From Gammaproteobacteria bacterium (lineage in GTDB: Bacteria > Pseudomonadota > Gammaproteobacteria > Steroidobacterales > Steroidobacteraceae): a stretch of DNA of 64,000 nucleotides. Position 1 is the first letter of the stretch; each line of letters begins with the position of its first letter. Below are positions 14,144 to 38,037 of this stretch, in pieces. The notes beneath the pieces were generated by a model. The model did not search any database and was not told where the DNA came from. It saw only the letters and a program-made list of their open reading frames with translations. The stretch covers positions 19,131 to 83,130 of the forward strand of contig JANYLM010000104.1 of assembly GCA_025357835.1 (NCBI GenBank). Direction: 5' to 3'. Position numbers and translations under genes: made by a program.

Positions 14144-14159
14144 TGTTCCACGTGGAACC
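14144..14159. promoter_or_regulatory. parS-like centromere site
   Basis: TGTTCCACGTGGAACC, with a perfect 14-base palindrome GTTCCACGTGGAAC. This equals the ParB-binding sequence I know from Pseudomonas. It lies just beyond the recF stop, and parA/parB are in this window about 22 kb away. Confidence 0.85.
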
Positions 14160-35545: not shown

Positions 35546-36210
35546 GTAACCCGCCCGTGACCCGAGAGGCCGATTACGAACTACTCGTCGCTGGTGCGCG
35601 CGACCTCGCGATTACCTTGGATGCGCATGCCGCGGAGGCGTTGCTGCGGCTCGTGGACGAACTCGAGCTCGGTAATGCCCAATTCAATCTGACGGCCATC
35701 CGCGACCGCCCGGGGATGCTGCGCAAGCATGTCCTCGACAGCCTGAGTTTGCAGCCCTACTTGCACGGCATCCGCGTCGCCGACATCGGCACCGGCGCGG
35801 GTTATCCGGGCCTGCCGCTGGCGATCGTCAACCCGCAGCGTCGATTCACCTTGGTCGAAGCCACCGGCAAGAAGGCGCGATTCGTCGAACAAACGGTACT
35901 TAGCTTAGGGCTCGGCAATGTTCAAGTCGAGCACGCCCGCGCCGAAAACTATAGGCCGTTCGAGCTTTTCGATACAGTGGTGGCGCGGGCTCTGTCGTCG
36001 CTGGCGGATTTTGCGGCGTATGCCGGGCATTTATGTGCCCCGGACGGGCGGCTGCTCGCCATGAAGGGAAAGCGGCCGGACCAGGAAATCGCCGGCCTGC
36101 CCAAGTCGTTTCGGGTACGGGCGGTGCATCGGCTCAAGGTGCCGGGACTGGACGACGAGCGGCATCTTGTGGAACTCTCACCGGCCAGGCCCAAATCGAG
36201 TAAGCAATGA
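35542..36210 (+). CDS. rsmG: 16S rRNA (guanine-527-N7) methyltransferase RsmG
   Basis: Methylates G527 of 16S rRNA. The 222 residues include NLTAIRD-type N-domain residues (QFNLTAIRDRPGMLRKHVLDSLSL), the SAM motif VADIGTGAGYPGLPLAI (about 82-98) and VVARALSSLADF. The stop overlaps the parA start by four bases, the normal rsmG-parA-parB arrangement near many gammaproteobacterial origins. Confidence 0.95.
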   Translation: MSNPPVTREADYELLVAGARDLAITLDAHAAEALLRLVDELELGNAQFNLTAIRDRPGMLRKHVLDSLSLQPYLHGIRVADIGTGAGYPGLPLAIVNPQRRFTLVEATGKKARFVEQTVLSLGLGNVQVEHARAENYRPFELFDTVVARALSSLADFAAYAGHLCAPDGRLLAMKGKRPDQEIAGLPKSFRVRAVHRLKVPGLDDERHLVELSPARPKSSKQ

Positions 36211-36992
36211 AGCGGGTCATCGCAGTCGCAAATCAGAAAGGCGGGGTGGGCAAGACCACCACCGCCGTCAATCTAGCCGCCTCGCTGACGGCCACCAAGC
36301 GGCGTGTGCTGCTGATCGATCTCGATCCCCAGGGGAATGCCACTATGGGATGCGGAATCGACAAGTATTCCCAATCCCGCACCAGTTGCGATGTGCTGTT
36401 GGGTGATTGCACTGCGATGGAGGCGCTGGTGCCGGTGGCGTACGGCGGTTTCATGCTGATGCCGTCCAATCAAGATCTCACGGCGGCCGAGGTTCGCCTG
36501 CTGACCATGATCGCGGGACGCGAGTTCAAGCTGCGCAACGCGCTCAAGCTCATTCGCGAAGACTTCGACGTGATATTGATCGACTGTCCGCCGGCATTGA
36601 ATATGCTCACCTTGAACGCGCTGGTGGCCGCGGATTCGGTCATGGTCCCCATGCAATGCGAATACTACGCGCTGGAGGGCCTGAGCAGCCTGGTGCAGAC
36701 CATCGAGCAGATTCGCAGCAGCATCAATCCCGATCTGGAAATCGAAGGCTTGCTGCGCACCATGTTCGACCCGCGTAACAATCTCGCGAATGAGGTGTCC
36801 GCGCAGCTCATCGAGCACTTCGGCGACAAGGTGTTTCGCACCATCATTCCACGCAATGTGCGGTTGGCGGAGGCTCCGAGTTTCGGCAAGCCCGCGCTTT
36901 TTCACGACAAGGAGTCGCGCGGCGCTCTTGCCTATCTGGCTCTCGCTGGTGAGATGATTCGCCGCGACGATACGCAGCCCGCGACCGTATAA
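36207..36992 (+). CDS. parA: Chromosome partitioning ATPase ParA (Soj)
   Basis: Walker-type ATPase driving segregation of ParB-parS complexes. The 261-residue protein has the deviant Walker A KGGVGKTTTAVNLAASL (from about residue 11), the A' motif DLDPQGNATMG, and DCPPALNMLTLNAL. It lacks an N-terminal helix-turn-helix, so it is the chromosomal type. The gap to parB (79 bases) contains a cluster of inverted repeats. Confidence 0.95.
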   Translation: MKRVIAVANQKGGVGKTTTAVNLAASLTATKRRVLLIDLDPQGNATMGCGIDKYSQSRTSCDVLLGDCTAMEALVPVAYGGFMLMPSNQDLTAAEVRLLTMIAGREFKLRNALKLIREDFDVILIDCPPALNMLTLNALVAADSVMVPMQCEYYALEGLSSLVQTIEQIRSSINPDLEIEGLLRTMFDPRNNLANEVSAQLIEHFGDKVFRTIIPRNVRLAEAPSFGKPALFHDKESRGALAYLALAGEMIRRDDTQPATV

Positions 36993-37002
36993 TCGGTTTG
37001 GT

Positions 37003-37053
37003 TAGTGGAATCGTTCCACTAATGGAATGGTTCCGTCAGCGGAATCAAATTCG
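37003..37053. promoter_or_regulatory. Cluster of GGAA-TTCC inverted repeats between parA and parB
   Basis: Contains a perfect palindrome TAGTGGAA-TCG-TTCCACTA (37003-37021), then GGAA-TGG-TTCC (37024-37034) and a looser GGAATCAAATTC (37041-37052). The centres of the first two lie 17 bases apart. The arms GTGGAA/TTCCAC are parS half-sites in reversed order. Likely a protein-binding region controlling parB. Confidence 0.45.
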
Positions 37054-37071
37054 GTCACTGGGATTTAAAGC

Positions 37072-37974
37072 ATGTCCGGCAAAAAGCCGTCTCTAGGTCG
37101 CGGCCTCGCTGAGCTCTCGCCCCTGCTCGCGAAGCGCGCGGCTGCGCCAGTCCACGAGCCAGCGGTGCTTGCCGGCGACCGGCTGGCAAGTTTGCCGCTC
37201 GATCTGCTGCAGCGGGGCAAGTACCAGCCGCGCGTCGACATGCGCCTCGAAACCCTGAGCGAACTCGCGGATTCGATCAAATCACAGGGTCTGGTACAGC
37301 CCATCCTGGTGCGGCCCGTGGGAGCCCGCAATCCCGGCGAATCGCAACGCTATGAAATCATTGCAGGCGAGCGACGCTGGCGGGCGGCGCAAATGGCGGG
37401 CCTGACCGACATTCCCGCGGTTATTCGCGATGTGCCCGATGAGGCCGCTGTTTCCATGGCGCTCATAGAGAATATTCAGCGCGAGGACCTCAACCCTCTG
37501 GAAGAGGCGGGTGCGCTGCTGCGCCTGATAGAAGAATTCGGCCTGACCCATCAGGCGGCCGCCGAGGCCGTCGGGCGCTCGCGTGCTGCGGTGAGCAATC
37601 TGCTGCGCCTCATGGAATTAGCCGACGAGGTCAAGGAATTGCTGGAACAGCGCCGCATTGAGATGGGCCATGCGCGCGCGCTGCTCGGCTTAACCTCGCG
37701 CCGCCAACAGGTCGAAGTGGCGGTCCTGGTGGCCAAAAAGGCCCTTTCGGTGCGCGAAACAGAAGCCCTGGTGCGTCGCATCATCAATCCGCAGGCCGGC
37801 AATTCACAGGAGTCTAAGCCTGTGGATCCGGATATTCACCGCCTGGAGCGCGAATTGGCCGATAAATTGGGTGCCAAGGTGGCGTTCCAGCACACCGCCT
37901 CGGGAAAGGGAAAGCTGGTCGTGAGCTACAACAGCTTGGACGAGCTCGAGGGTATCCTCGGCCACATTCAGTAA
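37072..37974 (+). CDS. parB: Chromosome partitioning protein ParB (CTPase, parS-binding)
   Basis: Binds parS and spreads as a CTP-gated clamp. The 300-residue protein begins KKPSLGRGLAELSPLL (ParA-interacting N-terminus). It contains the ParB/Srx CTP-binding blocks (GLVQPILVRPVG, then GERRWRAAQMAGL and ENIQREDLNPLEEA). A helix-turn-helix follows (LTHQAAAEAVGRSRAAVSNLLRL), then a short C-terminal dimer domain. Two matching parS-like sites occur near recF in this window. Confidence 0.95.
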   Translation: MSGKKPSLGRGLAELSPLLAKRAAAPVHEPAVLAGDRLASLPLDLLQRGKYQPRVDMRLETLSELADSIKSQGLVQPILVRPVGARNPGESQRYEIIAGERRWRAAQMAGLTDIPAVIRDVPDEAAVSMALIENIQREDLNPLEEAGALLRLIEEFGLTHQAAAEAVGRSRAAVSNLLRLMELADEVKELLEQRRIEMGHARALLGLTSRRQQVEVAVLVAKKALSVRETEALVRRIINPQAGNSQESKPVDPDIHRLERELADKLGAKVAFQHTASGKGKLVVSYNSLDELEGILGHIQ

Positions 37975-38008: not shown

Positions 38009-38037
38009 TTGATGGAGCGGGGCCGCCTCTCTATAAT
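38009..38037 (+). promoter_or_regulatory. Predicted sigma-70 promoter of the atp operon
   Basis: TTGATG (38009-38014), a 17-base spacer, then a perfect TATAAT (38032-38037). Transcription would begin near 38044, which argues against the TTG at 38050 as the atpI start and for the ATG at 38140. Confidence 0.7.

Follow-up and report, generated by a model that had tools for sequence, protein, structure and literature searches.

A conserved promoter-like signal at the parA stop codon and a species-specific repeat array in the parA-parB gap of a Steroidobacteraceae bacterium

The gap between parA and parB of this gammaproteobacterium holds an array of short inverted repeats that is ordinary and species-specific, and a conserved promoter-like signal just upstream of it, the hexamer TATAAT laid over the stop codon of parA, is of greater interest than the array itself. 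parB probably has its own promoter at the parA-parB junction, with this TATAAT as its signal. The explanation favoured here, which taken as a whole is judged somewhat probable, is a lineage-specific tandem expansion that added two extra copies of about 17 bp to the 5' leader of a parB gene driven by its own promoter, as parB would also be elsewhere in the family. In the genus the -10 hexamer would be built into the Val and stop codons of parA, transcripts would begin near position 37000, and the repeats would occupy the first ~50 nt of a leader of ~72 nt, where a single 13-bp hairpin or a pair of smaller ones may form. The consequence, if any, would most likely be post-transcriptional, with the 5' hairpin guarding the parB message and separating the expression of parB from that of parA.

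The window, i.e. the whole 64-kb stretch of DNA that was analysed, belongs to a draft assembly of 4.05 Mb, and the named sequences most similar to its ParB come from gammaproteobacterial metagenome assemblies, several of which carry the label Steroidobacteraceae. The gene order around parAB is rsmG, parA, parB, atpI, atpB, where parA and parB were named by NCBIfam-type and profile matches and the other three by reading their translations; gyrB, recF, dnaN and dnaA lie on the minus strand at 11.5-17.9 kb. The features at the parA-parB junction are as follows.

36207-36992, plus strand: parA, chromosomal ParA ATPase of 261 aa, from its open reading frame and NCBIfam ParA-type matches
36988-36993, plus strand: TATAAT, predicted -10 of a promoter for parB, lying across the final Val codon and the stop codon of parA
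37072-37974, plus strand: parB, 300 aa, with matches to TIGR00180 and PF17762

The two genes are separated by 79 bp with the sequence TCGGTTTGGTTAGTGGAATCGTTCCACTAATGGAATGGTTCCGTCAGCGGAATCAAATTCGGTCACTGGGATTTAAAGC. The window ParA starts MKRVIAVANQKGGVGKTT and is devoid of an N-terminal DNA-binding extension, and a plasmid-type parAB operator autoregulated by ParA was rejected on this ground.

parA ends GTA-TAA-T in 17 of the 20 genus members, GTA accounting for 28 of the 764 other Val codons of parA and parB, and one species of the genus has Leu CTA in place of Val and keeps TATAAT. The hexamer is thus conserved at the DNA level beyond coding need, which is hard to explain by the encoded protein. 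It also occurs in relatives that lack the array, upstream of the position where the array would lie. At the level of the family, a -10-like hexamer, defined as agreeing with TATAAT in at least five positions and lying no more than 50 nt from the parB ATG, precedes parB in 35 of 109 distinct loci as against 5.5 by shuffling, and its rate inside parA is 0.023 per scanned window. Among the 26 loci in which both gene starts could be placed, such a hexamer stands before parB in 18 and before parA in none. Many relatives have a 4-nt overlap of parA and parB with no -10 in view. Upstream of TATAAT no -35 hexamer is recognisable, either by scan or in an alignment anchored on the -10, and an extended -10 is absent, CCG preceding TATAAT instead of TGn. 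Given the missing -35 consensus, the parB promoter may be weak, may need another factor, or may not exist; since both elements are missing, the signal is called promoter-like and is not counted among established sigma-70 promoters. Another genus member (L008 in genome G019) also favours a signal beyond the protein: its parA has lost the usual stop codon and is extended, yet TACAAT persists where the hexamer normally lies.

In several other genera a TATNAT hexamer stands 6-8 nt upstream of the parB ATG, the distance at which 19 of the -10-like hexamers of the family are found. A -10 ending so close to the start codon implies a leaderless parB mRNA in these genera, if the hexamer is used as predicted. 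These relatives resemble the leaderless mRNAs of Caulobacter crescentus (PMC4117421) in that the -10 predicts a start at the parB ATG; unlike the Caulobacter case they are a matter of prediction, and in the window species a leader of ~72 nt is expected. Searched for genome-wide in seven genomes, TATNATC-ATG gave 68 matches at parB-like spacing versus 49 at a control spacing, an excess too weak to claim a genome-wide leaderless use of the motif. A literature search, with most subscription journals outside its reach, found neither a direct report of a leaderless parB nor a -10 built into a parA stop codon.

Promoters belonging to parB itself have been reported for Mycobacterium bovis BCG and M. 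smegmatis, where, according to the available part of the source, they lie at the 3' end of parA or in the gap and act besides the operon transcript (PMC2346475). The predicted parB promoter has a similar position; it differs in that it belongs to another phylum and another promoter type and that its activity is inferred. Nor is an inverted-repeat array described for the mycobacterial parB promoters in the part of that source available (PMC2346475). If TATAAT drives parB, the ParB:ParA ratio in the family would be set by a separate promoter, as in mycobacteria.

The array lies in this gap and consists of three units.

37002-37022, plus strand: unit 1, inverted repeat TTAGTGGAATCGTTCCACTAA, with 9-bp arms and a 3-nt centre (TCG)
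37024-37034, plus strand: unit 2, GGAATGGTTCC, GGAA-N3-TTCC, 17 bp past unit 1
37041-37053, plus strand: unit 3, GGAATCAAATTCG, weak, adjoining sequence that can be aligned to the nearest relatives

The first-pass annotation had described an array of GGAA/TTCC inverted repeats between parA and parB, made up of a perfect palindrome, a second GGAA-N3-TTCC and a weaker third. The array is present where it was placed and goes beyond shuffle expectation, the second and third units being found at 37024-37034 and from 37041, respectively; the palindrome has perfect 9-bp arms but is interrupted by its 3-nt centre and so is not strictly perfect. The exact TAGTGGAATCGTTCCACTA occupies 37003-37021, and its arms grow by one base per side to give the full unit 1. 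GGAAT recurs at 37007, 37024 and 37041, a step of 17 bp, and at this lag the units match themselves at 23 of 62 positions. Of 5000 dinucleotide shuffles of the gap, 9 produced an inverted repeat as long as unit 1 and 4 of 5000 a tandem-lag score as high as that of the array, which places the array above chance level for the gap. The 64-kb window contains seven inverted repeats of the size of unit 1, which is accordingly notable for the parA-parB gap and not rare across the window. A dispersed repeat was ruled out, as the 19-mer of unit 1 occurs a single time in the assembly and nothing else matched the gap DNA.

Gaps were compared among genus members, about 100 further members of the family, other families of the order and named gammaproteobacteria, relatives which are not independent samples. 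GGAA-N3-TTCC is absent from every other parA-parB gap compared (119 distinct loci listed). Among the 73 distinct gaps of at least 20 nt there is no other carrier of the unit 1 palindrome or of a half-parS, and three further gaps contain inverted repeats that are unrelated to this palindrome and whose arms measure 7 to 9 bp. In the nearest relatives, G015 and G008, whose ParA proteins are 92-95% identical to that of the window, the gaps measure 43 and 46 bp and are shorter by about 33-36 bp at the array, both flanks of which align; in the alignment to G015 the array is covered by one insertion of 34 bp, i.e. 2 x 17. Gap lengths within the genus span 3 to 79 bp, the window species having the longest. 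Tandem repeats are significant in 5 of the 46 gaps of at least 40 nt, including that of the window, and those in the other four (of 45) are built from unrelated units, which indicates that the parB leader tolerates such insertions. Short tandem repeats unrelated to the array, with lags of 13 bp and 8 bp, are seen in the gaps of L013 (G007) and L100, respectively. From the absence of the array in relatives, the insertion of 2 x 17 bp and the repeats in other gaps, a recent local expansion is the simplest account, and the array is best explained by the gain, in one lineage, of two additional copies of a ~17-bp unit. A conserved regulatory array was ruled out: across 217 family genomes the tandem pattern had a single further match, on contig C81 (L059) of G184, a genome whose parB is on contig C97. 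Conservation of the repeat in the gaps of relatives had been named in the first-pass annotation as a check, and its absence there as one half of what would speak against a regulatory role; the repeat is not conserved.

Three further features can be placed in the putative leader.

37000, plus strand: predicted parB transcription start, 7 nt past the -10, plus or minus 1-2, from the position of the -10
37006-37035, plus strand: predicted RNA hairpin of unit 1 with unit 2, 13 bp including G-U pairs, with a CUAA loop
37060-37063, plus strand: GGGA, likely ribosome-binding site of parB, downstream of the array

The parB transcript would start near G37000 and begin GGUUAGUGGAAUCGUUCCACUAAUGGAAUGGUUCC. 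When RNA of 37000-37040 is folded the energy is -17.1 kcal/mol with a z-score of -4.4 versus shuffles, which drops to about -2.5 with the whole parB leader folded, and alternative local stems are also possible in the array RNA. The array being confined to one species, the pairing of the hairpin is beyond the reach of a covariation test. Rfam gave no match up to E = 5 within 36900-37200, and a known structured RNA family was ruled out for this interval. The sequence CACTGGGATTT around GGGA is common to the window species and G015, and G008 has CACTGAGATTT. 5'-terminal stem-loops of the ompA type stabilise bacterial mRNAs. The predicted stem-loop is like these in lying a few nucleotides from the predicted 5' end and upstream of the ribosome-binding site; unlike them it derives from an array found in a single species, and a role in stability is suggested by analogy. 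A more far-reaching version, in which the parB genes of the family would be transcribed, often without a leader, from a conserved promoter with its -10 in the 3' end of parA, and in which the 5' hairpin array added in the window species would bring ParB under RNA-level control uncoupled from ParA, is considered unlikely.

Several other readings of the array have to be set against a lineage-specific expansion in the leader of a self-promoted parB. Neutral slippage would give the array this same origin and deny it any effect, the array being a non-functional tandem duplication and its palindrome incidental. This has a little under an even chance of being correct: the lack of the array in all relatives compared, the unrelated tandem repeats in other gaps and the wide range of gap lengths in the genus are all in its favour, and it is modestly opposed by the arms of unit 1, which are perfect over 9 bp though the units differ from one another, and by a plus-strand fold that is stronger than those of shuffles. 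The odds of a neutral array and of a 5' hairpin that protects the message are about equal. A terminator or attenuator acting between the two cistrons could make use of the same strong hairpin predicted in the plus-strand RNA, but no T run follows the hairpin and no terminator-like site was detected, which makes this reading very improbable; an intrinsic terminator in particular, i.e. a GC-rich hairpin and then a T run, was rejected for the gap. That the array is itself the parB promoter hardly deserves credence, its location in the gap being countered by the lack of any sigma-70-like pair in 36800-37200 and by the conserved -10, which lies upstream of the array and exists in relatives independently of it. 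A promoter for parB, as suggested in the first-pass annotation, is thus likely by way of the TATAAT over the parA stop codon, and its assignment to the array is unsupported.

The possibility of an operator depends on the relation of the array to parS, for which the following sites are relevant.

14144-14159, plus strand: parS site TGTTCCACGTGGAACC, with one mismatch, at the recF-gyrB junction just past the recF stop codon
14795-14810, plus strand: second parS site TGTTCCACATGGAACA, inside recF
37013-37019, plus strand: exact half-parS heptamer GTTCCAC inside unit 1, a heptamer known from PMC7022226 and PMC10419367

parS is defined as the 16-bp palindrome TGTTYCACGTGRAACA, with its half-sites in the order TGTTCCAC-GTGGAACA. 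The sites at 14144 and 14795, both near dnaA, are the only matches in the assembly with one mismatch or fewer, and a pair with similar spacing, about 610-870 bp, recurs in many relatives. The pattern TGTTCCACGTGGAACA has no match in the parA-parB gap with up to 3 mismatches allowed and the half-sites of the array are everted, i.e. in the opposite order, and a full parS in the gap was ruled out. The likeness of the arms to reversed parS half-sites, which had been pointed out previously, therefore comes down to one exact GTTCCAC in everted order. Having one of the two half-parS sequences (GTTCCAC or GTTTCAC), the array contains a candidate ParB site. ParB of P. aeruginosa and some other ParBs bind this heptamer, and P. 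aeruginosa ParB represses the genes adjoining the intergenic sites parS3 and parS4 (PMC7022226). By comparison, a repressor, possibly ParB by way of the half-parS, could bind the palindrome, which lies just past the predicted parB start at about +3 to +23, and repress the parB promoter. The array shares its exact heptamer with the ParB-bound parS and half-parS sites of P. aeruginosa (PMC10419367, PMC7022226), and is unlike parS of that species in its everted order and in containing no full site. GTTCCAC, moreover, occurs 14 times in the window versus 6.8 by shuffling, with several copies lying within the two parS sites or next to them, and when 25 half-parS sites were mutated in P. aeruginosa, transcription nearby showed no dominant response (PMC10419367). 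With the array not conserved either, an operator is regarded as quite unlikely.

Two minor observations concern the surroundings of parB and its paralogues. Directly past parB, TTGATG and TATAAT separated by 17 nt at 38009-38037 would serve the atp operon well as a promoter of sigma-70 type. A second ParB-like gene, its product ~47-50% identical to the window ParB, is present in several members of the genus (e.g. G003:C28, G010:C18 and G021:C218).
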